From Thermoplasmatota archaeon (lineage in GTDB: Archaea; Thermoplasmatota; E2; DHVEG-1), in assembly GCA_016930995.1 (NCBI GenBank), contig JAFGFQ010000127.1, positions 1 through 24,492 of the forward strand: DNA of 24,492 nucleotides, in the 5' to 3' direction. This document shows, one piece after another, positions 6,957 through 24,492 of the stretch. Both the position numbers and the translations under genes were made by a program. A model generated the notes under the pieces. It saw nothing but the letters and a program-made list of their open reading frames with translations. It did not search any database and was not told where the DNA came from. The number at the start of each line of letters is the position of its first letter. The stretch's first letter is position 1.

Positions 6957-8258
6957 TCAGAGAAAGGTAACGTCAAGATAATGAGTTGAACATGAGATAC
7001 AAGGGTCGTACGCCCGTACCAACATCTCTAATAACAACTCAATTTCTTTTGGGTTTTTATCAAGTATCTGTGGAACGAGTTTCTCCATGTCTTTCTGAAT
7101 GTTGGCATGGTTCTGGTTTGTTGGAATGATACAGTTCGCTTTCGTACAATACCCTTTTGAGTTCAACGTGTAATCATGGACAAGGATGCCTCGTGGTACT
7201 TCGACGATCCCGACACCCCTACCTGATTTAACCACTGGTTTTACTGGTTTTTCTGATTTTAATTTCTGATCCAGGAGAGAGTCGATGAGATACAAAGAAT
7301 CCTGAATGTTGTGGGAAAACTCAACGAGCTGAGCAATCGTGTTCATGTAGGGGTTGTACGAAGGTGCCCGCAAGCCAAACATATGGGCGATTTCCCGAGC
7401 AACAGGATAGAGTTGATTGCTATTGAGATTGAACCGAGCCAAGGCCCCAACCATGTACGACTCCCGCGCGTGCTTCGCATATTTTGCTGTCGATTGGGGT
7501 ACGACATATTCTTGCATAATCTCTTTGTAGTTGCGATATGAAGGATGCCGCCCTGTATCGGTTGATGCAACGATCCCCTCGTAGAGTGCATATTCTGAAT
7601 CAGAGGTAAGACCGATATATTCAGTCTCTCTGGAAAAAGACGGGAGTTTCTCCGAGACACCATGGAGGATGCTTGCAAGTTGGTGTGTAAGGTCCTGGCC
7701 TTCGGTTAGTCTTTTTTTCAATTCTACAAGTTCTTTCTCAGTCGGAATAGCTGAAAAACCACCAACAACCAAGCGGATAGGATGAATTGTACGACCACAA
7801 ATAAGGTCAGACATCTCATTTGCGAGACGATGCAATTTTACTATCTTAAGGACCGTATCGGTATGTTTCCCAACCAAGGGAAACACACTACCGACTCCAA
7901 ACAAATCAGGTGCCACAAGATAGCCGATATGCAGAATATGGCTTTGCATATTCTCAGCGTTAATCGCAAGACGACGTAATTGTGCTGTCTGTTTTGTAAT
8001 GGTCACTCCCAACGCATCTTCTGTGGCCTTTACAGATGCCAGGGAATGGCCAATGGAACAAATCCCACAGATCCTGGAGGTAATCGGACGTAACTCATTG
8101 TAATGTTGTCCCCTCAACATCGCTTCGAAAAATCGAGGGGCTTCCACGACGCTCCATTGAAGTTTCTCGATCTTGCCATTTTTCACATCAAGGGTGATAT
8201 TTCCATGTCCTTCAACACGAGTGAGATGCTCGACATGAACTGAAAAATCTTTACTCAT
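6957..8258 (-). CDS. hydA: [NiFe] hydrogenase large (alpha) subunit, group 3b type
   Basis: A 433-residue catalytic subunit that binds the NiFe(CN)2CO centre. Both nickel motifs are present: RICGICSIGH (Cys64, Cys67) and DPCISCSTH (Cys420, Cys423), with an RVEGHGN L1 region near the N-terminus. Seven residues (YLDVTFL) follow the final His and are probably removed by the adjacent protease. The frame opens further upstream, but ATG 8258 (MSKDFSVHVEHLTRVEG) is the real start: it matches the family N-terminus, is preceded by AAGGAGTG at ten bases, and overlaps the small-subunit stop as ATGAGTAA. The resemblance to Pyrococcus sulfhydrogenases and the gene order point to the soluble NAD(P)-linked group 3b. 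Confidence 0.9.
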   Translation of the reverse strand: MSKDFSVHVEHLTRVEGHGNITLDVKNGKIEKLQWSVVEAPRFFEAMLRGQHYNELRPITSRICGICSIGHSLASVKATEDALGVTITKQTAQLRRLAINAENMQSHILHIGYLVAPDLFGVGSVFPLVGKHTDTVLKIVKLHRLANEMSDLICGRTIHPIRLVVGGFSAIPTEKELVELKKRLTEGQDLTHQLASILHGVSEKLPSFSRETEYIGLTSDSEYALYEGIVASTDTGRHPSYRNYKEIMQEYVVPQSTAKYAKHARESYMVGALARFNLNSNQLYPVAREIAHMFGLRAPSYNPYMNTIAQLVEFSHNIQDSLYLIDSLLDQKLKSEKPVKPVVKSGRGVGIVEVPRGILVHDYTLNSKGYCTKANCIIPTNQNHANIQKDMEKLVPQILDKNPKEIELLLEMLVRAYDPCISCSTHYLDVTFL

Positions 8259-9015
8259 CGTAACTACACTCCTTCCGTCCGTAATTATACATTGTACAAC
8301 GCCGCCGAATATCCTCATACGAAAGATTGTAACGCTCAAGTACCTCTTTGACACATTCGGTCTCTGCTTTTTTAATAAGACCTCGACATCCTTCACAGGG
8401 GCTGTTATGGGTCGGACAAATGGCTTTACACCCAGCTCTTGTTATTGGCCCAAGGCAAAAATTACCTAGTTCGAATTGACAGATGTTTTCGTTCTTCTTA
8501 CATTCAACACATACAGGATAACGAGGTATCTCTGGTTTTTTTCCTAGAGCTATTGCAGTGATGACTGATTTAAACTCATCACGGTCTATAGGGCAGCCAT
8601 GGATGTAATAGTCAACCGGTACAACCTCATTGAGCGCCTTGGTTTGAAAGACATCAAATAGCTTGTTTTCCTTAAGATTTGCATCACCATAGACTTCCTT
8701 TTTTACTTCCTCAGGCATCCATTGGTTCCGAATCTTGTTCACACCACCAATTGTGGCACATGCCCCAAGAGCTATGAGGATCTTTGCATGGGCGCGTATA
8801 TTACGTAAACGCTCCTCATCAATCGGTCTCATGATAGAGCCTTCGACGATAGCTATGTCATAATCATCAGAATGTTCCTTCATCACCTCTCGGAATGAGA
8901 CGACATCGACAAAGGAGATAAGGTCAAGGATCTCTTCTTCGAGGTTGGCGATCTGCAATTCACATCCCTCGCAATCAGCGAAATCAAAGACAGCGACCCG
9001 TGGTTTTGCTTTCAT
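8251..9015 (-). CDS. hydD: [NiFe] hydrogenase small (delta) subunit
   Basis: A 254-residue electron-transfer subunit. The proximal cluster ligands are seen in ADCEGCELQ (Cys15, Cys18), GACATIGG and HGCPID. The C-terminal part carries further Cys-rich motifs (PVCVECKKNENIC and a later Cys group around ITRAGCKAICP) for two more [4Fe-4S] clusters, as in F420- and NAD(P)-linked group 3 enzymes. There is no twin-arginine signal or membrane anchor, so the enzyme is cytoplasmic. Its ATG overlaps the preceding stop as ATGA, and its own stop overlaps the large-subunit ATG by eight bases, implying translational coupling. Confidence 0.9.
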   Translation of the reverse strand: MKAKPRVAVFDFADCEGCELQIANLEEEILDLISFVDVVSFREVMKEHSDDYDIAIVEGSIMRPIDEERLRNIRAHAKILIALGACATIGGVNKIRNQWMPEEVKKEVYGDANLKENKLFDVFQTKALNEVVPVDYYIHGCPIDRDEFKSVITAIALGKKPEIPRYPVCVECKKNENICQFELGNFCLGPITRAGCKAICPTHNSPCEGCRGLIKKAETECVKEVLERYNLSYEDIRRRCTMYNYGRKECSYDE

Positions 9016-10946
9016 TCAAATGCCTCCGGTAATTCTTTAAGTTGTCCAAAATTGAAAACCGGACCTTCTTTGCACACATAAACCCCGTTGATCTGACAAT
9101 GTCCGCATTTACCGACCCCGCATTTCATTCGCCGTTCAAGAGACACATAAATGTTATCATCTGGTATTCCGAGGGTCTGTAGACATTTAATGACGAATTT
9201 ATACATCACGGGTGGTCCGATGATAATGGCCATGGTGTTTTTTGAATCAAGTTTATCCGCCTGGATTTTTGGGAATAAGGTTGTTATCAGACCAGTACAC
9301 CCACCCCAGCATTCACTTGGGTCGCATCGATCAACGGTTAGCTCGCATTGCACGTTTGGTACTTTTTTCCATTTGTCAACATCATCCATAAAGGTGATTT
9401 CCTTTGGACGTTTTGCTCCATAAAGAATGATGACGTCCTTGTATTTTTCTCTCTGACGAGGGTCAAGCACATGGTTGATTAGTGAACGCATCGGAACCAT
9501 GCCAGTCCCACCAGAAGTGAAAAGCAATGTTTTTCCTTCGAATGATGCAACATCAAATCCGTTTCCCAGAGGCCCCCGAATCCCCACCTCATCTCCAGGT
9601 TTCATTAAGCATAATTTTTTTGTTACGTTGCCAACCTGACGAACCATAATCTCAAAGACAGGGGTATCCCCTGGCGGAGATGAGATGCCGAACGGTGCCT
9701 CTCCATACCCAAATACCGAGACTTCGACAAACTGTCCTGGTCTATGCCCTAAGGGTTTTTTGTCGTCCAGTTCGATTTCAAAAAAGCTGTCGGTTTCATT
9801 GAACTGAGTTATTTTTTTTATGGTCGCACTGCGTGGGACATGAATGATTCCTTTTTCCAGAACCTCTGTTTCTTTCCTTATGAAATATCTCCCTGTGTTC
9901 TTACTTGAGGAGAAATGAGCAAGCTCATTGATAAGGTTACAGGGATCAGCAATATCAGGTAAACAAGCGCTCCCACAACGCCCGCAACCTACACAGGCGA
10001 CAAATCCATATCGCTCGGGAAGGTAGTTTCCTTTTCTGAAGAACCGATGTCGATACCGTTCTTTTATCTCCTCTCTGAAGACTTCACCACTGCCGACCTT
10101 TGTGAATTCCTTAAGCATGCATCCATCCCAGGTCCGAACCCGGGTACCGTCCTTGAGGCTCAGTGATACGTTATCTTTCACATCATAACAAAAACAGGTT
10201 GGACAGACCATGGTGCATGAGCTGCATTCCATGCAGACATCTGCATGCTCTTCCCATATCGCATGTTGATAATTTGCGACAAGAAGGGCGGACCAGTTTT
10301 TTTTATCGACCTTCACCTTTTGTTTATATTTTTTTAGAACTGTCTGACGGACTTTTTCAACCTTTTTTAGGTCCTCAGATGAAGCATCCTTCACTGTTGC
10401 ATATTTTTTCAATAGTCTTGTTCCTTTGTCAGATCCGATGGTTACAACATACGATATTCCAATATCTGTGAGGAGCAAATCAAAACCGGTATCGGTCACG
10501 TTTGTGTTCATGCTCCCTGCAAAAGACCGCTCGGAAACATTTTGAATATCGGTTCCAATGATGATGGTGTTTTCTCGACGTTTCTTATAGAAGGTGTCTT
10601 GTTGTTCGTCCAGGTAATGACGATCTGTTTGTTCTAATGCGATGATATCATAGGGATGTACTCCGATAATGATGCGTTGGGTGTCATCAGAGGCTTGTAT
10701 TGCTTCAAAGGGTTTTTCTAATGAAAATTTTAATAACTGTTCATATTGTGGGAGGAAATATTTCTTTGGAGGAAGAATGGTGACGTCGTAGTGTAATTGT
10801 AATTGATTGGCAGAGGATAACGTATCAAAAACATAGCGTTTTCCCTTTGCAACAACTCCAACTACATCATACTTCCCGTCTTTTATTAAAGAGTTTACAA
10901 ATGATGAAAAATCTTTTTTAGATATTGTTTTTACAACTTGTTTCAT
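9012..10946 (-). CDS. Fused hydrogenase beta-gamma (HydB-HydG) diaphorase subunit
   Basis: A 644-residue fusion of two proteins that are separate in Pyrococcus sulfhydrogenases. The N-terminal half (about 1-365) is HydB-like, with two ferredoxin-type Cys groups at 238/241/244/248 and 318/321/324/328 plus extra Cys (CPTCFC). The C-terminal half (about 366-644) is HydG-like: FAD site around RPGQFVEVS and FGISSPP, NAD(P) site TSGGTGMVP, and a [2Fe-2S] motif with Cys609, 614, 617 and 625. It moves electrons between NAD(P)H and the hydrogenase clusters. The frame continues to GTG 10955, but AGGTG at 10958-10954 sits six bases before ATG 10946 and looks like its ribosome-binding site, so I chose 10946. 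The total matches the sum of the two usual subunits with no stop or shift. Confidence 0.87.
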   Translation of the reverse strand: MKQVVKTISKKDFSSFVNSLIKDGKYDVVGVVAKGKRYVFDTLSSANQLQLHYDVTILPPKKYFLPQYEQLLKFSLEKPFEAIQASDDTQRIIIGVHPYDIIALEQTDRHYLDEQQDTFYKKRRENTIIIGTDIQNVSERSFAGSMNTNVTDTGFDLLLTDIGISYVVTIGSDKGTRLLKKYATVKDASSEDLKKVEKVRQTVLKKYKQKVKVDKKNWSALLVANYQHAIWEEHADVCMECSSCTMVCPTCFCYDVKDNVSLSLKDGTRVRTWDGCMLKEFTKVGSGEVFREEIKERYRHRFFRKGNYLPERYGFVACVGCGRCGSACLPDIADPCNLINELAHFSSSKNTGRYFIRKETEVLEKGIIHVPRSATIKKITQFNETDSFFEIELDDKKPLGHRPGQFVEVSVFGYGEAPFGISSPPGDTPVFEIMVRQVGNVTKKLCLMKPGDEVGIRGPLGNGFDVASFEGKTLLFTSGGTGMVPMRSLINHVLDPRQREKYKDVIILYGAKRPKEITFMDDVDKWKKVPNVQCELTVDRCDPSECWGGCTGLITTLFPKIQADKLDSKNTMAIIIGPPVMYKFVIKCLQTLGIPDDNIYVSLERRMKCGVGKCGHCQINGVYVCKEGPVFNFGQLKELPEAFE

Positions 10947-10981
10947 CTCAGACACCTTTTTTCGTCTAAGGAGATAACTTT

Positions 10982-11066: not shown

Positions 11067-12416
11067 TTATTCTGGCGCTTGGGCGATATACCCATGTTTC
11101 ATCAGAGTCTGTGTGATATCCCTGGATTTTTTTATGATTGACAACGCATGTTCATAGAGCTGTTGACGAGATGGCTTGATCCGAGCAATCCCTTGGGACA
11201 TCGCTTTCATACCCACAGCGACAGCCTCTCGGGGGAAGACTTCCCATGAATCCATGGTGGGTACTATGGCAGTATCACTAAGCCCTGTGTCCTCTGCGGT
11301 TTTTGCTAGCTCATGGGCAGCTGCGATGCACATTTCATCGGTGATGGTCTCAGCGCGTACATCAAGAGTTCCTCGGAATATCCCTGGGAAGCCTAATGAG
11401 TTGTTGATCTGGTTGGGAAAATCTGATCGGCCTGTTGCGATGATACGGGCTCCTGCTTCTTCTGCTTCCCATGGCCAAATCTCTGGTATCGGGTTTGCAG
11501 TGGCAAAGAGTATTGAGTCCTGTGCCATGGAGGCGACCCATTCTTTTTTAATTGTACCAGGGCCTGGTTTGCTTGCAGCGATACATATATCGGTATCTCT
11601 GAGAGCATCAGCAATGCCACCGGTTCGACCTTGAGCGTTTGACTTTAAACACATCGCCCATTTTTCAGGGTTACTCTCTCTTTCTTGTTCCAGGTCTTCT
11701 CGAGAGCTATGGAGAATGCCTTTGCTGTCTACCATGATGATGTTTTTTTGCTGCACCCCTGCTGCGATAAGCACGCGTGCGATAGCGATGTTTGCTGCGC
11801 CTGCACCAACCATGCTGACAAGAGCACTGTCAAGTGGTTTTCCAACGATTTTTAACGCATTGATCGCTCCTGCGGTAACAATGGTTGCTGTGCCTTGCTG
11901 ATCATCATGCCACACAGGGATATCCATTTCTTTTCTCAGGCGATCGAGGATGTAGAAACATTTTGGTTTTTCGATATCCTCAAGATTGATACCACCGAAA
12001 CTTGGTTTGAGCCATTTTACTGCCTGGATGATCTCCTCAGGGTTTTTTGTGTCAAGGCAGATTGGATATGCATCGACGCCCCCAAGGTATTTGAAGAGGA
12101 GCGATTTTCCTTCCATAACCGGGAGTCCTGCCTCAGGTCCGATGTCTCCAAGTCCAAGAACTCGTGTCCCATCACTGACGACAGCGACCGTATTCCACTT
12201 ATTTGTGTAATCAAAAACTTTTAGAGGATGCTTTTGAATCTCTTTGCAGGGTTCTGCGACACCCGGGGTGTACCAGATAGCAAAATCATTGAAATCTTTT
12301 ATACGACATTTTGGTAACACTTCTATTTTTCCATGATAGAAAGGATGTAATCTCATAGCGTCTTTCGCTGGTTTATTTGCCTTTTCAAGCAGTTGTTTTT
12401 CGTTGATTTGTTTCAT
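11067..12416 (-). CDS. Malic enzyme (malate dehydrogenase, oxaloacetate-decarboxylating)
   Basis: A 449-residue cytoplasmic enzyme that oxidatively decarboxylates malate to pyruvate with reduction of NAD(P). Seen: YTPGVAEP near residue 50, the VVSDGTRVLGLGDIG catalytic stretch, the metal and substrate motif HDDQQGTA, the Rossmann loop GAGAANIAIAR, and GRSDFPNQINN. It is the single-domain bacterial/archaeal type, without the phosphotransacetylase-like extension of MaeB. NAD versus NADP preference cannot be read with confidence. It is first in the - strand series and 120 bases before the NAD(P)-linked hydrogenase, so its reduced nucleotide could feed that enzyme. It is divergent from the hdr operon. 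Confidence 0.9.
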   Translation of the reverse strand: MKQINEKQLLEKANKPAKDAMRLHPFYHGKIEVLPKCRIKDFNDFAIWYTPGVAEPCKEIQKHPLKVFDYTNKWNTVAVVSDGTRVLGLGDIGPEAGLPVMEGKSLLFKYLGGVDAYPICLDTKNPEEIIQAVKWLKPSFGGINLEDIEKPKCFYILDRLRKEMDIPVWHDDQQGTATIVTAGAINALKIVGKPLDSALVSMVGAGAANIAIARVLIAAGVQQKNIIMVDSKGILHSSREDLEQERESNPEKWAMCLKSNAQGRTGGIADALRDTDICIAASKPGPGTIKKEWVASMAQDSILFATANPIPEIWPWEAEEAGARIIATGRSDFPNQINNSLGFPGIFRGTLDVRAETITDEMCIAAAHELAKTAEDTGLSDTAIVPTMDSWEVFPREAVAVGMKAMSQGIARIKPSRQQLYEHALSIIKKSRDITQTLMKHGYIAQAPE

Positions 12417-12599: not shown

Positions 12600-13127
12600 A
12601 TGAGCATTATCGACTTGACTTCTATGGGGGAGCCGCAGTCGGATCAACGCAAGGAACTCAACGACCGACTCACAAAACTCCTAGACGAAATATCAGACTA
12701 TTGTTACCAATGCGGCAGATGCACCTCTGGTTGCGAAGCACATAAACTCCTAGAGCTAGAGCCACATAAAATCGTCGCATTATTAAAACGAGGATTACTT
12801 AACGAACTTGTCAACTCTGATGTCATCTGGACCTGCATGAGCTGCATGAAATGCAGGGAACGATGCCCCCAACGCGTCGCCCCTGTTGAGGTTTTATTTG
12901 CTTTAAAGAACATGGCCGTCGCAAGCGGCAAACAAATCCCAGGAAAATACACCGGCATGCTCCAGTCAATCCTCTCGATGGGACTAATCCAGGATATCCA
13001 GCAAACAACAACCCGTGGTACTACAACAGTGAAACGAGACGAGCTTGGACTTCCCCCGCTTTCCAAACCAGTTAATGTTGCCAAGTTTCAAGCAGGAATC
13101 ATGAAAATTGCGATGGAAAAGGTATAA
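12600..13127 (+). CDS. hdrC: Heterodisulfide reductase subunit C (soluble HdrC)
   Basis: A 175-residue iron-sulfur protein with two complete CxxCxxCxxxC motifs: Cys35/38/41/45 (CYQCGRCTSGC) and Cys79/82/85/89 (CMSCMKCRERC). HdrC passes electrons from HdrA to HdrB. There is no membrane segment, so it belongs to the soluble HdrABC type rather than HdrDE. It is the first gene of the large operon; HdrB follows after five bases. The stretch after residue 105 is less conserved and contains a Thr-rich segment. It serves as the normal reference against which the duplicated, His-containing HdrC at 22094 stands out. Confidence 0.9.
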   Translation: MSIIDLTSMGEPQSDQRKELNDRLTKLLDEISDYCYQCGRCTSGCEAHKLLELEPHKIVALLKRGLLNELVNSDVIWTCMSCMKCRERCPQRVAPVEVLFALKNMAVASGKQIPGKYTGMLQSILSMGLIQDIQQTTTRGTTTVKRDELGLPPLSKPVNVAKFQAGIMKIAMEKV

Positions 13128-13132
13128 CGACG

Positions 13133-14011
13133 ATGAAAAAGAAATACGCACTGTATCCTGGTTGTTTGATGCCAACAGAACAATACGCCTACGAACTTTC
13201 AATCAGAGAAACTCTGCCGATACTCGGAGTTGACCTCGTCGACGTTGAAGGGTTTTCCTGTTGTGGAGAACCTATGAAAAGTGTGAATCAATTCCTCACC
13301 TTGTATCTCTCCACACGCAATCTTGCGATAGCCGAGAAACATCATTTGGACCTATTCGTCCCATGTGCAATGTGTCATCTGGCGCTTTCCGAATGTCGCC
13401 ATGTTCTTGAGAAGAACCCAGCAATGAAAGAACGAATCAACAGTCACCTCGCCGCCGAGGACTTACAATACACAGGGAAAAGCAAGATTGTTCACACCAT
13501 CGATTTATTGCATGATCAAATCGGGATTGAAAAGATAAAGGAGCATGTCAAGAAACCATTTAACGGTCTGAAAATAGCTGCTCATTACGGGTGTCACCTG
13601 ATCCGCCCCAGTGAGATCGGTCGTCCGGATGACTCAGAAAATCCACAGAAGATAGAATCGATCCTCAAAGCCATCGGTGCCGAACCAGTGAACTACCCCC
13701 AGAAACTTGACTGCTGCGGTGCGCCATTACTTGCCAATCTCCCGGAGTCCGCACTGACAAAAACAGGTCAAAAGCTCCAGGCAATACAGGAACAAGGAAT
13801 CCAAGCATTGGTAGATGTCTGTCCTTGGTGCCATAAGATGTTCGACAGCAAACAAACCAAGGCCGGAGAGACTGTAGCAACAAAACTTGATGTCCCCGTA
13901 TTCTACCTCACCCAATTACTTGGAATGGCCTTAGGACTGTCTGCTGAGAAACTCGGCTTAGCACTCAACCTCAGCCCTGTCGAAAAACTCCAGCAGGAGG
14001 CTGCGACGTAA
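13133..14011 (+). CDS. hdrB: Heterodisulfide reductase subunit B (HdrB)
   Basis: A 292-residue protein with two full CCG domains, which in HdrB hold noncubane [4Fe-4S] clusters and cleave a disulfide. The first is Cys11, Cys43-Cys44-Gly, Cys78-x-x-Cys81. The second is in GCHLIRP, DCCGAPL and CPWCHK. All ligand Cys residues are present, so it should be catalytically competent. In methanogens the substrate is CoM-S-S-CoB; nothing in the window shows that those coenzymes are made here, so the real disulfide (or another two-electron acceptor) is open. Its stop shares a base with the hdrA ATG (TAATG). Confidence 0.9.
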   Translation: MKKKYALYPGCLMPTEQYAYELSIRETLPILGVDLVDVEGFSCCGEPMKSVNQFLTLYLSTRNLAIAEKHHLDLFVPCAMCHLALSECRHVLEKNPAMKERINSHLAAEDLQYTGKSKIVHTIDLLHDQIGIEKIKEHVKKPFNGLKIAAHYGCHLIRPSEIGRPDDSENPQKIESILKAIGAEPVNYPQKLDCCGAPLLANLPESALTKTGQKLQAIQEQGIQALVDVCPWCHKMFDSKQTKAGETVATKLDVPVFYLTQLLGMALGLSAEKLGLALNLSPVEKLQQEAAT

Positions 14012-15974: not shown

Positions 15975-18900
15975 ATGATTATGACAAAAGAAAAAAAACA
16001 AAAGAACACTGCTGCACATAAACATGGGTCAGTCCTAGTCATCGGTGGTGGTATCTCAGGGATTCAATCATCTCTTGACTTAGCAGATGCAGGGTTCAAA
16101 GTCTATCTCGTTGACCGTGGTCTTTCTATCGGTGGGACCATGACACAACTAGATAAAACATTTCCAACAAACGATTGTGCCATGTGTATCCTTGCACCAA
16201 AACTCGTCTATACAGGACGACATGAAAACATACATATCATCACAAACGCAGAGGTCTCCGATGTCAAAGGCGAGGTAGGTAACTTCCATGTCACACTTAA
16301 GAAATACCCCCGTTACGTCGATCTTACAAAATGCAATGGATGCGGTGATTGTGTAGAACACTGCCCGGTTTCCATGCGATCTGAATTCGATGAGGGACTT
16401 ACGACACACAAAGCCATCTATCAACCATTCCCACAAGCGATTCCAAATATCTTCGCTATAAGAAAAAACGAAGGCACCTCCCCGTGTAGAATCTCCTGCC
16501 CAGCTGGATTGAACGCCCATGGGTTCGTCGCGTTAGCGGCTCAAGAGAAATTCGCAGAAGCCTTTGAGCTTATCAAAGAAACCATCCCCTTCCCAGGATC
16601 ATTGGGGCGTATATGCTATCATCCCTGTGAAACAGATTGCAACAGGAAAGACATCGATGAACCAGTCTCCATTTGTCGCATCAGACGATTCATTGCCGAT
16701 TACATTTATGACCACCCAGAAACCCTTGTCGAGTATCAGAAAATAAAAGCAGAAAAACAACAAAACAGAGAAACCGACCAGACAAAGAGAGGAAACAACC
16801 AAAAAGTCGCAATCATCGGAGCGGGACCTACCGGAATAACCGCTGCATACGACCTCTCTCGCAATGGTTACAAACCAGTAATCTTCGAGGCAGAGAAATT
16901 CACCGGGGGTATGCTGCATTACGGGGTACCTGACTATCGACTCCCAAAAGAGTATCTCCATAAAGAAATTGATCCTCTCTGCGAACAAGAACAAATCGAA
17001 CTTAAGACCAACCAGAAGCTTGGAAGAGATTTCACGCTGTCAGATCTCAAGAAACAAGGGTTCAAAGCTATCCTTGTTGCGATCGGCGCTCATAAGACAC
17101 GTGCCGCGGGGATTGAATGCTGTACTGGAACAGATACCTGTATTTTGGAAGGCGTCGAGTATCTCAAACAGCTCAACAGGAACATGATCGCAACGGAATA
17201 TTTCAAGGGAAAAACCATTTTAGTCATCGGTGGTGGAAACGTCGCGATGGATTCCGCACGCACCGCACGGCGTCTCGGGGGAAACGTAACCGTCTTGTAT
17301 CGAAGGTCTCTAAAAGAGATGCCAGCGCACAAAGAGGAAATCCAACAAGCAGAAGGGGAAGGAGTTGTATTTAGCTTTTTAACCGCCCCAACGAAACTGC
17401 ATAAAAACGAGAAACATACCTGCCTCCAATGTGTGAAAATGGAGCTAGGGGAACCAGATGCATCAGGGAGACGACGCCCTGTTGTTGTGCCTACTTCAGA
17501 ATATGATGTCCCCTGTGACTATGTTATCTTTGCAATAGGCCAGGAACTGGATATAAAATTGATGGAAGAAAACAATATCGCTCTTTCCGCCTCAGGTTTT
17601 ATCCAGGTGGACCCTATCACGTTACAAACAACCCAGGAGGGGGTGTTTGCTGGTGGTGATGCTGCCTCCGGTCCTGCGTCTGCTGTCGAGGCGATTGCCG
17701 CAGGTCACCGTGCCGCAGAATCAATCGATCGATATCTGAACAATGAAGATTTGATGAAAGGTCGAGAAAAGAAAGAGCCAGTAAAAGCACAGATCCCAAA
17801 GGAAACCCTCAGAATCCCACAAGAGCGGGAACAACCACTATTACTACCCCTTGATGAACGGGTAAAGACGTTTACCGAAGTCGACCAAGGTTTCACCAGA
17901 GAACAGGTTATCCGTGAGGCACAACGATGCCTGAATTGCGCAGGATGCTGTGATTGCCAACAATGTGTCCTTTACTGTGGACCGAATGCCATTGACCATC
18001 AGATGAAGCAAACATCAGAGACTATTGATGTCGGAGCTGTTATCGTCTCCCCAGGTTTTGCAGAGTACACTCCACCAAAAGCAGATAGTTACGGATATCA
18101 AGTCTATCCGAATGTACTCACCAGCATCGAATTCGAACGAATGCTATCAGCTTCAGGACCATATAAAGGTCATATCAAACGGATCTCTGATGGGAAGCCG
18201 TTGAAAAAAATCGCATGGCTCCAATGCATCGGTTCACGTGATGAAAGCTGCGACCGTAAATACTGCTCCTCGGTGTGTTGCATGTATGCAACCAAGGAAG
18301 CAGTCATCGCAAAGGAACATGAGCCTGGCGTCGACACCCATATTTATTACATGGATATGCGGTCGTTCGGCAAGGATTTTGATAAGTATTTTGAACGAGC
18401 TCAAAACGAGTATGGCGTTGTGTATAGACGATGCCGCATCGCAAAGGTAGAACAGGACCGAAAAACAAAACAGCTCACAATCCGCCATGTCGATGAGAAA
18501 GGAGCCTTACAAAGCGAGATTTACGACATGGTGGTACTTTCGGTAGGATTACAACCCTGCGCAACCCTTGGTCATCTCAGTAAAGCATTGGAGATTAATT
18601 TAAATGAATACGGGTTTGTCGAGACAGATACATTCACACCGGTCTCCACCTCACGTGAAGGCATCTATGCATCAGGGACGGTCACAGAACCAAAGGACAT
18701 CCCTGAGAGTGTGACCCAGGCGTCTGCAGCCGCAGCAGAAGCGGCAAAGACTATCGCAGAGGTGCGAGGAACAGAGGTCGCTGAGAAGACATACCCAGTA
18801 GAACGGGACATAAAAACAGAGGTTCCCCGGATAGGTGTATTCGTCTGCCATTGCGGGATCAATATCGCCGGCGTCGTTGATGTGAAAAAAGTTGTTGAAG

Positions 18901-20498
18901 TCTCAAAGACACTCCCCTATGTGACCTACTCAGATGATACCTTATTTACCTGCTCACAGGATTCACAAGAAAAAATAAAGGAAAAGATTAAAGAATTCAA
19001 TCTCAACAGGGTTGTTATCGCATCATGCACTCCCCGGACACATGAGCCATTATTCCAGGATACGCTTCGTCAGGCTGGGTTGAACCCTCATCTATTTGAG
19101 ATGGCAAACCTTCGTGACCAGAACTCCTGGGTCCATAAAAGCGCTCCTGACAGTGCTACGGAAAAAGCAATCGATACGGTGAAAATGGCAGTTGCGAAAT
19201 CTTCTGATTTATACCCCGTGCGTCATCTGCAGATCCCTGTCATTTCCAGCGCTCTTGTGATCGGTGGTGGTATCGCAGGGATGACCGCGGCATTATCCAT
19301 CGCTGACCAAGGGTATCAGGTCTATCTCGTCGAAAGAGAACCAGAGCTTGGTGGTCATCTCAAGGAAATCTATCTTGGGGCACATGGGGAGAAACCACAG
19401 GACCTCTTGAAACAGACCCTTGAACAAGTCACCAGTCACCCTCAAATACAAGTATTTACCCAGACCACCATCGGACAGATCTCCGGATACGTCGGGAACT
19501 TCTCCACAACATTGCAGAAGGATAAAAAGGAGAAGACACCAACCGTTATTCAACATGGTGTCATCATCGTCGCAACCGGTGGAGTCCCGTACGAACCAAA
19601 GGAATATCAGTACAAGAAACACGATGACGTGCTGACACAGACTCAGTTTGAGAAAGACCTCTTTTATGAAAAAACATATCTAAAGGACCTAAAGGAGGTC
19701 GTGATGATTCAATGCGTCGGATCACGAAACGATGACCATCCCTATTGCAGCAGGGTGTGTTGTTCTGAAGCGTTGAAGAATGCGTTGCGATTCAAAGAGC
19801 AAAATCCCGATGCAACAGTCTATGTCCTGTATCGTGATATCAGGACATACGGATTCAGGGAGGATGTCCTCTACCAGAAGGCCCGAAAGAAAGGGATCCT
19901 TTTCATACGATTTGACGAAAAAGATGAACCAAAAGTAACCATCGATGATGGAAAACTTCAGGTAAACACAAAAGACCCCATCCTCCAACGAGAACTCCGT
20001 TTGCACCCGGATAAATTGATATTAAGCACTGGTGTTCTCCCACAGAACAATAAACCACTTGCACAACTACTAAAAGTCCCCTTAAACCAAGATGAGTTTT
20101 ATGCCGAAGCGCACGTGAAGCTACGCCCGGTTGATTTCTCTGCAGACGGTATTTTCCTCTGCGGTCTAGCCCATTCACCTCGATTCATCGAAGAATCAAT
20201 CGTACAAGCGAAGGCTACTAGTGCCAGGGCAGCAACAATCCTTTCAAAAAAATACCTTGAGACAATAGGTAACATCGCCAGAGTGGTTTCGCGGAATTGT
20301 GCAGGATGCCAACTTTGTATCGAGGCATGCCCCTATGATGCGATTAGCTACGACGAAGAAAAGAAAATCGTAGTCGTCAATGAAATCCTCTGCCAGGGAT
20401 GCGGCGCGTGCTCCGTGGTCTGTCCAAGTGGCACGTCACAACAGAATACGTTTACGAAACGTCAGATCATCTCTATGATTGATGCGTGTTTGGAGTAA
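15975..20498 (+). CDS. Giant HdrA-GltD-HdrA fusion flavoprotein, 1507 residues
   Basis: One frame joins three flavin modules. (1) An HdrA FAD domain without the usual N-terminal domain: GGGISG near residue 20, DCAMC at 67-71, cluster Cys120/123/126/130. (2) Inserted at about 170-670, a GltD/NfnB-like NAD(P)H:acceptor module: Cys171/175, Cys214/218/222/234, FAD motif GAGPTG (282-287), nucleotide motif GGGN (419-422), and a GDAASGP FAD loop, ending in EAQRCLNC and a dense Cys run (652-668) that merges with the second HdrA ferredoxin cluster. HdrA resumes to about 940. (3) A second HdrA unit from about 950: CHCG (958-961), GGGIAG from 1097, and two C-terminal clusters (Cys1442-1452 and 1473-1483), lacking the inner ferredoxin. 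Predicted role: pyridine-nucleotide-linked electron bifurcation with HdrBC. ATG 15981 is an alternative start. Confidence 0.88.
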   Translation: MIMTKEKKQKNTAAHKHGSVLVIGGGISGIQSSLDLADAGFKVYLVDRGLSIGGTMTQLDKTFPTNDCAMCILAPKLVYTGRHENIHIITNAEVSDVKGEVGNFHVTLKKYPRYVDLTKCNGCGDCVEHCPVSMRSEFDEGLTTHKAIYQPFPQAIPNIFAIRKNEGTSPCRISCPAGLNAHGFVALAAQEKFAEAFELIKETIPFPGSLGRICYHPCETDCNRKDIDEPVSICRIRRFIADYIYDHPETLVEYQKIKAEKQQNRETDQTKRGNNQKVAIIGAGPTGITAAYDLSRNGYKPVIFEAEKFTGGMLHYGVPDYRLPKEYLHKEIDPLCEQEQIELKTNQKLGRDFTLSDLKKQGFKAILVAIGAHKTRAAGIECCTGTDTCILEGVEYLKQLNRNMIATEYFKGKTILVIGGGNVAMDSARTARRLGGNVTVLYRRSLKEMPAHKEEIQQAEGEGVVFSFLTAPTKLHKNEKHTCLQCVKMELGEPDASGRRRPVVVPTSEYDVPCDYVIFAIGQELDIKLMEENNIALSASGFIQVDPITLQTTQEGVFAGGDAASGPASAVEAIAAGHRAAESIDRYLNNEDLMKGREKKEPVKAQIPKETLRIPQEREQPLLLPLDERVKTFTEVDQGFTREQVIREAQRCLNCAGCCDCQQCVLYCGPNAIDHQMKQTSETIDVGAVIVSPGFAEYTPPKADSYGYQVYPNVLTSIEFERMLSASGPYKGHIKRISDGKPLKKIAWLQCIGSRDESCDRKYCSSVCCMYATKEAVIAKEHEPGVDTHIYYMDMRSFGKDFDKYFERAQNEYGVVYRRCRIAKVEQDRKTKQLTIRHVDEKGALQSEIYDMVVLSVGLQPCATLGHLSKALEINLNEYGFVETDTFTPVSTSREGIYASGTVTEPKDIPESVTQASAAAAEAAKTIAEVRGTEVAEKTYPVERDIKTEVPRIGVFVCHCGINIAGVVDVKKVVEVSKTLPYVTYSDDTLFTCSQDSQEKIKEKIKEFNLNRVVIASCTPRTHEPLFQDTLRQAGLNPHLFEMANLRDQNSWVHKSAPDSATEKAIDTVKMAVAKSSDLYPVRHLQIPVISSALVIGGGIAGMTAALSIADQGYQVYLVEREPELGGHLKEIYLGAHGEKPQDLLKQTLEQVTSHPQIQVFTQTTIGQISGYVGNFSTTLQKDKKEKTPTVIQHGVIIVATGGVPYEPKEYQYKKHDDVLTQTQFEKDLFYEKTYLKDLKEVVMIQCVGSRNDDHPYCSRVCCSEALKNALRFKEQNPDATVYVLYRDIRTYGFREDVLYQKARKKGILFIRFDEKDEPKVTIDDGKLQVNTKDPILQRELRLHPDKLILSTGVLPQNNKPLAQLLKVPLNQDEFYAEAHVKLRPVDFSADGIFLCGLAHSPRFIEESIVQAKATSARAATILSKKYLETIGNIARVVSRNCAGCQLCIEACPYDAISYDEEKKIVVVNEILCQGCGACSVVCPSGTSQQNTFTKRQIISMIDACLE

Positions 20499-20504
20499 GA
20501 GAAC

Positions 20505-20954
20505 ATGAGTGAAGAAAAAAAGGACCATAAGAAGGAAACCTTTGAACCAAAGATCGTTGGGTTCCTCTGCAATTGGTGTAGTTACGCAGGTGCTGACCTT
20601 GCTGGTACCAGCCGTATTCAATACCCGCCGAACGTACGAATCATCCGAGTCATGTGTTCTGGGTCTGTTGATTCCATGTATATCCTCCGAGCGCTGCTCG
20701 AAGGGGCTGATGGCGTGTTTGTTGGCGGATGCCATCCGGGTGATTGTCACTACATCGATGGGAACTACAAAGCCCGACGGCGCATGGTACTTCTTCAGAA
20801 TATCCTTGATACCCTAGGCCTTGAGAAAGAGCGAGTATGGCTGCGGTGGATCTCTGCTTCAGAGGGGCAGAAGTTCGCTGACACGATGAAAGAGATGACT
20901 GAGGCGGTCCGAAAACTAGGTCCCAATCCGATCGCTAAACACTGGAATCTGTAA
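20505..20954 (+). CDS. mvhD: MvhD-type [2Fe-2S] electron-transfer protein
   Basis: A 149-residue protein of the MvhD/FlpD family, which in methanogens links a hydrogenase or formate dehydrogenase to HdrA. The Cys pattern is complete: [20 protein letters not shown], and [10 protein letters not shown]. The conserved helical ending PNPIAK is present. No Mvh hydrogenase subunits lie beside it, so its electron partner is probably the FrhB-like subunit next door or one of the large HdrA proteins. The start follows the megaprotein stop by six bases. Confidence 0.9.
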
Positions 20955-20970: not shown

Positions 20971-22092
20971 ATGACACAAAAAGTGTTGAAAATAAAGGAC
21001 AATGACTTGACAGAATCAATCAATGATTTCTTACGTCTTCTCCTGTCATCAGGAAAAATACAAGCATTGCTCGTCCCACAGAGCACTCCTTCAAAGAAAA
21101 TTGCATTCCCGGTCCTACTCTCAGACCCGCAGAAACTCCATGCTGATGTTATCGCCCCGGTTCTCCCCACCTCTACCGCCGCAATTATATCCAAGATGAC
21201 CAAGGTGCAGCCCCCCTCGCACCCGATTGGTGTCGTGATGCGACCATGCCAGATACGTGCCCTTATCGAACTTGTTAAACTGAACCAGGCGAACCTTACC
21301 AATATTATCATCATTGGAATAGACTGCCCAGGAACGTTTCCCATCAATACCTATTCATCGTTTCCTGAGAAGGAATCCCCAACACAGTTCCTTATCGAAT
21401 CATTACAAAAGAAATCTGATGACGCAGAAAAATATCTCCGTTCCGCCTGCAGAATCTGCAAAGACCCGACCCCGACACACGCTGATATCACTGTTGGGTT
21501 CTATGGCATCGACCTTGAAAAGGAACTATTCATAGAGGCTATCTCAGAGGCGGGTAAAAACATCCTGCAGGGGATACCTCTTGAGGATTGCAAAGAAGGG
21601 AAAACCAGGGAAAAAGCAGTCAAGCAATTACGTGAGGAAAAAACAAAGAAACGGGTTGCCTTCCTCAAGGAAAAAGAGGGGCTGAAAGGTATTGAGAAGA
21701 TCGCTGATTTTTTTGACACCTGTGTCAATTGTCATAATTGCCGACAAGCTTGCCCTATCTGTTATTGTAAAGAATGTTTATTCGACTCCTCAGTGTTCGA
21801 CGCTGAGGCCTATAAGTTCGTCCGCAAAGCAGAGGTTAAAGGTTTGTTTAAAATGCCGACCGATGCATTGCTCTTCCAGCTTGGGCGGATGAACCATATG
21901 ATCCTTTCCTGTGTGGAATGTGGGTTATGCGAACAGGCCTGTCCCAACGAAATCCCCTTGATGGATGTGTTTATCCCAGTTGCAGAGAACGCTCAGAAGG
22001 AGTTTGACTATTCCCCTGGCAAAGATGAAAAAGAGAAAATCCCGATGATCGTATACCGGGAGAATGAGTTCTTGGAGGTAGGAGAAAAATAG
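20971..22092 (+). CDS. FrhB/FdhB-like flavoprotein (F420 hydrogenase/dehydrogenase beta family) with two [4Fe-4S] motifs
   Basis: A 373-residue protein. The N-terminal two thirds match the FrhB/FdhB fold that binds FAD and, in characterised members, F420 (RPCQIRALIELVKL, IIIIGIDCPGT, SACRICKDPT). The C-terminal part has CVNCHNCRQACP (Cys251/254/257/261) followed by extra Cys 264, 266 and 269, and a second cluster at Cys314/317/320/324. This is the likely entry or exit for hydride electrons in the Hdr complex. F420 is the first guess, but related bacterial proteins use other nucleotides, so specificity is uncertain. A strong GGAGG lies ten bases before the ATG. The downstream HdrC gene starts one base after its stop. 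Confidence 0.85.
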   Translation: MTQKVLKIKDNDLTESINDFLRLLLSSGKIQALLVPQSTPSKKIAFPVLLSDPQKLHADVIAPVLPTSTAAIISKMTKVQPPSHPIGVVMRPCQIRALIELVKLNQANLTNIIIIGIDCPGTFPINTYSSFPEKESPTQFLIESLQKKSDDAEKYLRSACRICKDPTPTHADITVGFYGIDLEKELFIEAISEAGKNILQGIPLEDCKEGKTREKAVKQLREEKTKKRVAFLKEKEGLKGIEKIADFFDTCVNCHNCRQACPICYCKECLFDSSVFDAEAYKFVRKAEVKGLFKMPTDALLFQLGRMNHMILSCVECGLCEQACPNEIPLMDVFIPVAENAQKEFDYSPGKDEKEKIPMIVYRENEFLEVGEK

Positions 22093-22093
22093 C

Positions 22094-22762
22094 ATGGATG
22101 TCATTGACTCCCGCAAGGTTGACCCCCATTTCAAGTTTCAAATAGCAAACGAACAAGGTGGCGAAGGCATCCTGAAATGCTTCGCCTGCGGTGCCTGCAC
22201 AGCTCGATGTCCCGAGATGGACGTCAAACCCGAATGGAACGCCCGTGTCATCATCCGCAAAGCGTTGCTTGGTTTGAAAGAAGAAGTCTTAAGCAGTGAG
22301 TTCGTGTGGATCTGCAGCGCACATTACCGTTGCCTGGAGAAATGCCCTCAAAAAGTAAACGTCAAAGAAGTCATGAACGCTGTACGGGACGCCCGTCTGA
22401 TCGAGGAGCAAATCGAGGATGTCACCGGAAAGAAGGCGAAAAAATACCTTGATTTGGAGTTCAAATACAAAATATCTCAAACAGAGGCAGGAAAAGGCCT
22501 TTATGAATGTTTCTCCTGTGGGACCTGTACGGCAGGATGCCCAGAACGAGAGCTTGACCCATTATACTCCCCGCGGAAAGTGATAAAGAACGTGCTTCTT
22601 GGGATGAAGGACCCTGTCTTTTCAAATAAGTTTGTTGAGATCTGTTCATCTCACCATCGGTGTCTCACCCAGTGCCCGCAAGGGGTGGAGATCCCAAAGC
22701 TCATGAACGCGATTAAGAACATTGCGATAAAAGAAGGATATCATCGAAAAACAAAAGAGTAA
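22094..22762 (+). CDS. Internally duplicated HdrC-like protein with CxxHxxCxxxC motifs
   Basis: A 222-residue protein made of two HdrC-like halves repeated with an exact 110-residue period. Each half has one canonical motif (Cys29/32/35/39 and Cys139/142/145/149) and one in which the second Cys is His: Cys74-His77-Cys80-Cys84 (CSAHYRCLEKC) and Cys184-His187-Cys190-Cys194 (CSSHHRCLTQC). Both halves keep the flanking FVxIC and CPQ context, so the change is not random decay. It could carry four clusters, two with a His ligand or an open iron site. GGAG lies nine bases before the ATG. It sits between the FrhB-like gene and a tandem HdrA, so it probably bridges those two in place of ordinary HdrC. 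Confidence 0.85.
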   Translation: MDVIDSRKVDPHFKFQIANEQGGEGILKCFACGACTARCPEMDVKPEWNARVIIRKALLGLKEEVLSSEFVWICSAHYRCLEKCPQKVNVKEVMNAVRDARLIEEQIEDVTGKKAKKYLDLEFKYKISQTEAGKGLYECFSCGTCTAGCPERELDPLYSPRKVIKNVLLGMKDPVFSNKFVEICSSHHRCLTQCPQGVEIPKLMNAIKNIAIKEGYHRKTKE

Positions 22763-22768
22763 GTCACT

Positions 22769-24492
22769 ATGACGAAAAAAACGGAAGGTATCGGAGCGGT
22801 TGCTGTCATTGGCGGTGGCATCGCCGGTGTACAAGCTGCTCTTGACCTGGCTGACATGGGATACAAAGTCTATGTCCTTGAGAAATCACCGACCATCGGT
22901 GGCGTTATGGCTCAGCTTGACAAGACGTTCCCAACAAATGATTGCTCCATGTGCATCCTGTCCCCAAAGCTTGTGGATTGCGCACGTCATCAGAATATCG
23001 AGATCCTTACGAATGCTCACGTCGAGGGTGTTGAAGGGACCGCTGGAAATTTTTCCGTCAAGGTTCTGAAAAAACCCAGATACATCGACATAGAGAAATG
23101 TACCTCGTGTGGGAGCTGCGAGGAAGTCTGCCCCGTGTCCCTTCCAAATGCATTTGAATACGGGTTGGTGAAACGAAAAGCAATCTACAAACCATTTCCA
23201 CAGGCAATCCCCAATGCCTATGTCATCGACAAGGAAGGTGATGGGAAGCACCGTGGCTGTATCGACTGTATGCGCTGTGTAAAAGAATGCAAGTCTGGTG
23301 CGATTAACCATGATCAAAAACCAGAGCACCTGAGCTTTCATGTCGGTGCGGTCATCATCGCTGCAGGTTCACCTCCCTTCGACCCAGTGATAAAACCGGA
23401 ATTCGGATACAAGAAATATAAAAATGTGCTGACCAGTGTTGAGTTCGAAAGAGTTCTATCCGCCTCAGGACCCACACAGGGCAAAATCCTCCGACCAAGT
23501 GACCAGAAACATCCGACACGCATCGCCTGGGTTCATTGTGTCGGATCCCGTGATGCATCAGTCAGCCATGAATACTGCTCCGCGATGTGCTGTATGTACA
23601 CCGCAAAGGAAGCAATCATCGCCAAAGAGCATGCATCTGATATTGAGCCGACCGTGTTCTACATAGATATCCGTTCCTATGGCAAAGATTTTGACAAATA
23701 CATAGATAGGGCGAAAAAAGACCACGGACTCCGCTACATCCGATCCAGAATCTCAGAGATAACTGAGGATCCAAAAACACAAGACTTAATCATAAAATAT
23801 GAGGATGATACAGGAAACTTCAAAGAAGAGACATACAACCTTGTAATCCTCTCAGTAGGATTATGTGGTGCTGGTGAACGTCGCAACGAGCTAATGGATA
23901 TCCTTGGTTTTGATTCCAACGAATTTATGTTTGTCCGTACAAACCCCGATGACCCTGTCGTGATCAAACCAGGGATTTTTGTCGCCGGTTCTTTCCTCGA
24001 GCCACAGGCAATCCCTGAGTCAGTGATGCAAGCGTCTGCTGCTGCCGCCAATGCAGCAGCATTACTTAAGGACTCACGAGGTACACTAGTAAAAGAAAAG
24101 GTGTACCCTGCGGAAAAGAACGTATCAGCGGAGAAACCCAGAATAGGAGTGTTCCTTTGTAACTGCGGGATCAACATAGGTGGTTACGTCGACATCCCCG
24201 GGGTCGCGGACTATGTGAAATCGTTACCAGATGTTGCATTTGTCGAGACCAACGTGTACACCTGCTCCGAAGATACACAGAAGAAAATCGTCCACGCAAT
24301 ACAGAAACATAATCTGAATCGTATCTTGGTCGCCGCCTGTACCCCTCGGACTCATGAACCGCTATTCCAGAAAAGTCTCCGAGACGCGGGTCTGAATCCC
24401 CATCTGCTAGAGATGACGAACATCCGGGAACAATGTTCATGGGTTCATATGGATGAACCTGTCAAAGCCACCGAGAAGGCAAAACAACTGAT
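22769..24492 (+). CDS. Tandem HdrA-type flavoprotein, 3'-truncated by the window edge
   Basis: The frame is open from ATG 22769 to the last base (574 codons) with no stop, so the end is missing. It starts directly with the FAD motif GGGIAG (from residue 15), then DCSMC (58-62), a ferredoxin at Cys111/114/117/121 and a second canonical one at Cys164/167/170/174, and the rest of an HdrA FAD domain to about 450. A new HdrA N-terminal domain then begins (LCNCGINI, Cys464/466; ACTPRTHE; EQCSWVH). This is the same HdrA-HdrA layout as the 1507-residue protein but without the GltD insert, and it would probably continue for another 450 or so residues. It follows the duplicated HdrC by six bases. Confidence 0.88.
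   Translation, partial: MTKKTEGIGAVAVIGGGIAGVQAALDLADMGYKVYVLEKSPTIGGVMAQLDKTFPTNDCSMCILSPKLVDCARHQNIEILTNAHVEGVEGTAGNFSVKVLKKPRYIDIEKCTSCGSCEEVCPVSLPNAFEYGLVKRKAIYKPFPQAIPNAYVIDKEGDGKHRGCIDCMRCVKECKSGAINHDQKPEHLSFHVGAVIIAAGSPPFDPVIKPEFGYKKYKNVLTSVEFERVLSASGPTQGKILRPSDQKHPTRIAWVHCVGSRDASVSHEYCSAMCCMYTAKEAIIAKEHASDIEPTVFYIDIRSYGKDFDKYIDRAKKDHGLRYIRSRISEITEDPKTQDLIIKYEDDTGNFKEETYNLVILSVGLCGAGERRNELMDILGFDSNEFMFVRTNPDDPVVIKPGIFVAGSFLEPQAIPESVMQASAAAANAAALLKDSRGTLVKEKVYPAEKNVSAEKPRIGVFLCNCGINIGGYVDIPGVADYVKSLPDVAFVETNVYTCSEDTQKKIVHAIQKHNLNRILVAACTPRTHEPLFQKSLRDAGLNPHLLEMTNIREQCSWVHMDEPVKATEKAKQL

Follow-up and report, generated by a model that had tools for sequence, protein, structure and literature searches.

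Which electron carrier does an HdrA protein serve when a complete NAD(P)H module is lodged inside it? The question is raised by a 24,492-nucleotide stretch of DNA from a Thermoplasmatota archaeon (contig JAFGFQ010000127.1; hereafter the window), where a single frame of 1507 residues lies among genes for a heterodisulfide reductase (Hdr) complex. This 'megaprotein' consists of a first HdrA unit (residues 17-930), which encloses a GltD module (residues 166-655) between its two ferredoxin clusters, and of a second HdrA unit (residues 951-1507). A sequence-only reading had proposed two HdrA units and a complete GltD/NfnB-like module in this frame, inserted after the PFPQAIPN motif and ahead of the second ferredoxin cluster. 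Domain matches and predicted folds bear out this composition, and the module indeed sits between both clusters. Structures predicted for pieces of the chain (unit 1 with GltD, and unit 2) give an HdrA fold over residues 16-931 with a GltD fold inside, and an HdrA fold for unit 2. Up to the insertion the host is collinear with other HdrA proteins: residues 19-164 align without gaps to residues 142-287 of 8rvv_A HdrA, and residues 20-165 to 146-291 of 5odc, at equal length. Three flavin sites are predicted from sequence and fold, as the sequence-only reading had it; the FAD and nucleotide motifs of the GltD module, and the predicted module itself, are intact.

We consider it likely that this protein, which is of the same kind as Moorella HdrA and HdrL, acts as HdrA in a cytoplasmic Hdr complex that bifurcates (or confurcates) electrons, with NADP(H) in the place of ferredoxin. 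A single chain would stand for the two partners of an HdrA dimer: C71, in unit 1, would complete the cluster in the N-terminal domain of unit 2 and so wire the two FAD domains together. The GltD module would take a hydride from NADPH (or give one to NADP+) at its own FAD, and single electrons would pass from a putative cluster b (C214, C218, C222, R237) to a putative cluster a (C171 and C175 with C652 and C655), then on to the ferredoxin clusters inserted in unit 1, which in an ordinary HdrA form the ferredoxin-reducing arm. The ferredoxin site would thus be lost and NADP(H) would become the low-potential partner, while the HdrA flavins (E721/K774 and E1226/K1268) would bifurcate, and MvhD and HdrB/HdrC would link a third donor and the disulfide. 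Because GltD sits on the ferredoxin arm, NADPH probably replaces ferredoxin rather than joining it. That the insertion could block ferredoxin has been proposed (PMC12054007; papers are cited here for excerpts of their text), and this paper and PMC13040438 run contrary to the earlier suggestion of NAD(P)H as a fourth partner in addition to ferredoxin, which we do not retain. NAD(P)H as a partner is itself supported, by the intact motifs, the predicted fold and the NADH:benzyl viologen activity of the Moorella enzyme (PMC9430772, PMC5861303).

Could so long a frame, with such repetitive domains, result from an assembly or annotation error joining separate genes? We aligned the query with 120 of 7995 scored relatives (121 rows) and scanned loci from one genome per species (best 80 of at least 580 candidates). 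All three modules occur in 116 of the 121 rows. A single match spans them in 69 of the 80 loci, five of the other 11 being flagged at a contig end. The fusion is found on the complete chromosome of Candidatus Formimonas warabiya (NZ_CP017634.1, L061, 1470 residues), and in the Moorella genus the M. stamsii protein has a match of 85-100% identity in 11 of 11 genomes searched, beginning at its residue 1 or 3 and running to its end. An artefact, which the sequence-only reading had named among the findings that would overturn its claim, is therefore refuted and its probability negligible. By record titles, the fusion extends to Deltaproteobacteria/Desulfobacterota, Clostridia including Moorella, Chloroflexi, Spirochaetes, Gemmatimonadota, Armatimonadota, Lentisphaerota, Atribacteria and archaea. 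In the 116 rows, 37 cysteines are invariant, including every cluster ligand named here and all four of cluster 1 (C120, C123, C126, C130); E721 and K774 are kept in 116 rows each, E1226 in 114 and K1268 in 106. Longer double HdrAs bearing GltD also exist (L105, L106, L107 and P0085, about 1650 residues; the open frames of the first three span 1568-1671 residues).

The architecture is thus already known and widespread, and the window protein is a further archaeal member, probably linked to NADPH; the novelty claimed for it earlier does not hold, as it was in print in 2009 (PMC2702500) and 2022 (PMC9430772). In the MetFV-HdrABC-MvhD complex of Moorella thermoacetica, HdrA (162.8 kDa; PMC9430772, PMC5861303) has its thioredoxin reductase and ferredoxin part broken by a GltD domain and continues into a second HdrA (922-1487); it has three FAD, eight [4Fe-4S] clusters, one NAD(P)H site and the E/K pair in both thioredoxin reductase parts. 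The enzyme shows an NADH:benzyl viologen activity of 190 U/mg (PMC9430772), and its second acceptor, reportedly not ferredoxin, is still debated (PMC13040438). The window protein shares the HdrA unit interrupted by GltD in the inserted ferredoxin domain, the second HdrA, and the MvhD and HdrB/HdrC genes alongside. Desulfobacterium autotrophicum has HdrL1-HdrL3, heterodisulfide reductase/glutamate synthase fusions beside mvhD, of which HdrL1 and HdrL3 are selenoproteins (PMC2702500); likened by description, these are bacterial, and the window protein has cysteine rather than selenocysteine. The HdrA9, 10 and 11 of ANME-1 carry an NfnB insertion (PMC9012536), and the class name A9-TRX-C suggests an extra thioredoxin reductase part. 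HdrA with GltD was termed type III in 2025, in work that covered methane/alkane archaea only and had nine such sequences (PMC12054007). By description, our protein has in common with these archaeal forms an insertion of about 500 residues in the inserted ferredoxin domain, and the type III marks of GltD within HdrA, K409 and E356 are kept. The type III nucleotide motif GXGXXG reads GxGxxA in the window, although this motif, compared by description, may denote another site.

The two HdrA units are complementary. Unit 1 opens with its FAD domain and keeps C71, equivalent to Cys197 of 5odc, without an N-terminal domain; unit 2 has the N-terminal domain (C958, C960, C993, C1018) and no cysteine between 1018 and 1247. 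Because of this reciprocity, a single chain may replace the HdrA dimer. Double HdrA fusions have been reported in archaea (PMC11237513), and the same complementarity in ANME double HdrAs, but in the opposite order to the window, where the ligand comes first and the N-terminal domain second (PMC9012536). Codon 71 is cysteine in the window and an in-frame TGA in 19 of the 80 loci (L007, L016, L020, L026, L028-L031, L033, L034, L038, L040, L047, L052, L069, L073-L076). No TGA lies elsewhere inside the matched segments of the fusion, and segments of more than 300 residues hold otherwise one stop, a TGA in the separate GltD gene of L004. The TGA at codon 71 is most naturally read as selenocysteine in the position of the trans ligand, in agreement with the HdrL selenoproteins (PMC2702500).

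How does the GltD module fit into a loop, and which nucleotide does it use? The motif FTEVDQGFTREQVIREAQRCLNC stands after the GltD core in the window and before it in NfnB: in a comparison of a 531-residue piece with 4ylf, residues 468-496 match 14-42, and 9-432 match 44-462. Given this permutation, C652 and C655 are expected to meet C171 and C175, and the insert should have its ends near each other, as would suit its placement in a loop. The nucleotide site is of the form GxGxxA (G419, G421, A424), with G, G and A in 76 of the 78 readable loci of the 80. A basic pair at the place of R443 and R444 would bind the phosphate of NADPH. The triplet YRR (442-444), which NfnB, NfnL and StnC also have, is found in 110 of 116 rows and in 51 of the 80 loci. 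CLE is found in six rows and 20 loci, and in 10 of the 10 Moorella loci read; the rest of the 80 loci have ALE (2), DPF (2), CIE, MRE and ETR (1 each) or are unreadable (2). As the window has YRR where the NADH-oxidising Moorella enzyme has CLE, we predict a preference for NADPH. Between the 51 YRR loci and a CLE group of 25 (counting ALE, CIE, MRE and ETR, and leaving out the two DPF and two unreadable loci), MetF frequency does not differ (p 0.34) and CLE is rarer beside Flx-like genes (p 0.006); the rows are related and we give these figures no weight.

The GltD flavin could itself be a further bifurcation site, like that of NfnB, so that electrons would bifurcate at both GltD and HdrA and ferredoxin would still be reduced. 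Two bifurcation sites have been proposed for ANME-1 HdrA-NfnB (PMC9012536), and R322, corresponding to NfnB Arg187 near the FAD N5, is present in 116 of 116 rows; StnC shares this arginine, so it is not decisive. At the position of NfnB Glu117, a ligand of the cluster beside FAD, the 116 rows have arginine (68, including R237 of the window) or lysine (48), never glutamate. This position is Lys170 in StnC, whose K170R variant retains about half of the activity and whose flavin was judged non-bifurcating (PMC10482914). StnC and the NfnABC large subunit (8oh5, 9bov, 9n5u) share the order of the GltD module, with CLxC at the C-terminus, and StnC has an NADPH site; their GltD belongs to a NuoG-like subunit beside a NuoE/NuoF bifurcating core, unlike that of the window, which lies inside HdrA. 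The module is thus closer to the NADPH module of Stn, which does not bifurcate, than to NfnB, and we read its flavin as a two-to-one electron gate. Three bifurcating flavins per chain become harder to maintain, and we hold bifurcation at GltD to be unlikely.

A plain electron conduit from NAD(P)H to the disulfide or to MvhD, without any bifurcation, seems similarly improbable: non-bifurcating HdrA complexes are noted in PMC9430772 and the unit 2 lysine varies among members, but the E/K pair, a proposed and unproven mark of bifurcating HdrA, is kept in unit 1 of all 116 rows and mostly in unit 2. Several points nevertheless weigh against the bifurcating complex with NADP(H) in the place of ferredoxin that we favour. 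We found no biochemical work on archaeal members. Some members may lack bifurcation in unit 2, since its lysine is replaced by R or N in 10 of 116 rows and by Q in Formimonas and Desulfotruncus. The StnC-like traits cannot prove that the GltD FAD is non-bifurcating while R322 is universally kept, and the YRR/CLE rule depends on one enzyme tested with NADH and on general knowledge of Rossmann folds.

Is GltD the only module accepted by this loop? In the uncultured archaeon LFW-68_2 (L011), the flanking proteins are 80-96% identical to those of the window, and in place of the megaprotein stand three genes that overlap or abut. The first fuses the HdrA FAD domain and cluster 1 to NuoE (314 residues, PF01257), the second encodes NuoF with an extra 4Fe-4S part (644 residues, PF01512, PF10589), and the third fuses a NuoG-type [2Fe-2S] front to what remains of HdrA unit 1 and to unit 2 (1081 residues). 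C652 and C655 are absent from this last frame and from the sister HdrA downstream in the window. The cut falls in the loop joining clusters 1 and 2 that in the window holds GltD, about 25-30 residues ahead of the GltD insertion point; because of this distance the two insertions look like separate events. Proteins of this HdrA::NuoE type are common: among 120 listed relatives, PF01257 and the HdrA motif DKTFPT (or a one-letter variant) are each present in 120, and 112 have 285-345 residues. Two other HdrA::NuoE proteins (P0200 and P0228, about 430 residues) keep the N-terminal HdrA domain, which indicates a split form on canonical HdrA too. Two candidates for siblings without GltD were discarded: P0083, whose start lies within GltD, is a truncated GltD protein, and the frame from L011 is the half fused to NuoG.

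In the class of L011, 33 of 80 genomes searched had matches at E 1e-150. The same operon carries GltD in ten of the sets read (the window, L002, L117-L124) and NuoEFG in five (L011, L112, L113, L114, L115), besides a partial set (L103) and a more distant operon (L116). An HdrA::NuoE match spanning both halves was found in 7 of 26 genomes examined of these 33, one of which (G028) has a 1659-residue GltD-bearing frame elsewhere. Outside this class, one of 31 genomes from the 80 loci, a TA06 bacterium (L021), also has an HdrA::NuoE gene at E 1e-60. Three changes of module type are needed in the tree of the downstream flanking genes (15 rows), and four in that of the upstream ones (13 rows). L011 and L114 fall inside a six-row clade with the window (100/99), L112/L113 group with the GltD-type L122 in the upstream tree (100/100), and L115 with the GltD-type L124 in the downstream tree (100/100). 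Trees of the HdrA parts, in which several forks are weakly resolved, require a minimum of two changes, so that in some of the changes recombination seems to have replaced the HdrA block as a whole. The L115/L124 pair persists at 100/100 in the second HdrA-part tree (built without L002, whose frame breaks near residue 1181, L125, L126 and the u1N part), which points to exchange of the module alone.

We lean towards the view that HdrA has, in the loop that parts its inserted ferredoxin clusters, a natural socket where pyridine-nucleotide modules are exchanged, accepting within a single archaeal operon either an NADPH-type GltD, in one 1500-residue gene, or a HydABC/Bfu-type NuoE-NuoF-NuoG, with HdrA split over three genes. 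In this way NADH, perhaps together with ferredoxin should the NuoF part bifurcate, would take over from NADPH in the operon at a constant disulfide end. Bam-Bfu combines a NuoEFG-like core and an HdrA-type module among eight subunits (PMC9304861). We found no description of the split HdrA/NuoEFG form in the open-access PMC literature, as incompletely covered, nor in the passages on Hdr, NuoE or NuoEFG of PMC10327494, PMC5736913 and PMC8407382; the alternation of GltD and NuoEFG may be the part that specialists do not know.

The megaprotein gene belongs to an operon of order hdrC-hdrB-hdrA(652)-megaprotein-mvhD-frhB/fdhB-like-hdrC2-double HdrA (Table 1). The hdrC2 product has two consecutive 4Fe-4S dicluster domains in one HdrC-like chain. 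Within 8 kb of the match, the 80 loci have MvhD in 69 cases, MetF in 40, MetV in 38 and HdrB in 25. In the window, which ends at 24492, MetV and MetF have no match at E 1e-3; the protein is thus a relative of Moorella HdrA and not of its methylenetetrahydrofolate reductase complex, whose methylene-tetrahydrofolate role cannot be transferred. F420, also suggested earlier as a partner, is not retained: the frhB/fdhB-like neighbour matches only FrhB_FdhB_C (PF04432) and 4Fe-4S families at E 1e-5. On the opposite strand, 6957-10955 holds genes for a [NiFe] hydrogenase with an NAD-binding subunit, and 11067-12416 a gene that we take, by eye, to encode a malic enzyme; both are possible sources of NADPH. 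Beside the [NiFe] small and large subunit genes, a 647-residue frame (9012-10955, minus strand) fuses Fer4_22 to an NAD-binding flavoprotein (HydB-/HydG-like).

Table 1. Features of the megaprotein, its operon and the split form (positions in the window unless a locus is given)
Feature	Position	Strand	Remarks
hdrC-like (4Fe-4S dicluster)	12600..13127	+	
hdrB-like (CCG domain)	13133..14011	+	
Canonical-length HdrA, 652 aa	14011..15969	+	
HdrA-GltD-HdrA megaprotein	15975..20498	+	one frame, 1507 aa
HdrA unit 1, FAD (thioredoxin reductase-like) domain, first part, residues 17-110	16023..16304	+	N-terminal HdrA domain absent before it
C71 codon (Cys197 of 5odc HdrA)	16185..16187	+	putative trans ligand, cluster of partner's N-terminal domain
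Inserted ferredoxin domain, cluster 1 (C120 C123 C126 C130) to PFPQAIPN and first linker residues	16311..16469	+	
GltD module, residues 166-655	16470..17939	+	Fer4_20, FAD site GAGPTG, R322, nucleotide site GGGNVAMD, C-terminal EAQRCLNC
R237 codon	16683..16685	+	position of StnC Lys170 / NfnB Glu117 (ligand, cluster beside FAD)
Y442-R443-R444	17298..17306	+	predicted NADPH phosphate site (Moorella: C-L-E)
Inserted ferredoxin domain, cluster 2 (C658 C661 C664 C668)	17940..17990	+	
HdrA unit 1, second part, residues 673-930	17991..18764	+	cluster C751/C764/C768/C769, E721, K774
HdrA unit 2, N-terminal domain, 951-1085	18825..19229	+	C958, C960, C993, C1018
HdrA unit 2, FAD domain, 1090-1430	19242..20264	+	without inserted ferredoxin domain, without Cys197
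Unit 2 FAD domain residues	within 19242..20264	+	E1226, K1268, cluster C1247/C1258/C1262/C1263
HdrA unit 2, C-terminal two-cluster ferredoxin domain, 1436-1490	20280..20444	+	
MvhD (FlpD)	20505..20954	+	
FrhB/FdhB C-domain protein with 4Fe-4S domain	20971..22092	+	
Double HdrC-like 4Fe-4S protein	22094..22762	+	
Second double HdrA without GltD ('sister' HdrA)	22769..24490	+	cut by window end; 1016 aa in L011
Split HdrA/NuoEFG	L011:6627-12748		also in L112-L116

The window protein is one member of a widespread HdrA class in which NAD(P)H is coupled directly to an Hdr complex. Its kin offer testable points: the residue code for NADPH versus NADH, two HdrA units that would complement each other within a single chain, and a natural exchange of NAD(P)H modules at a single site, through which a comparison of sibling complexes could show what the ferredoxin arm does.

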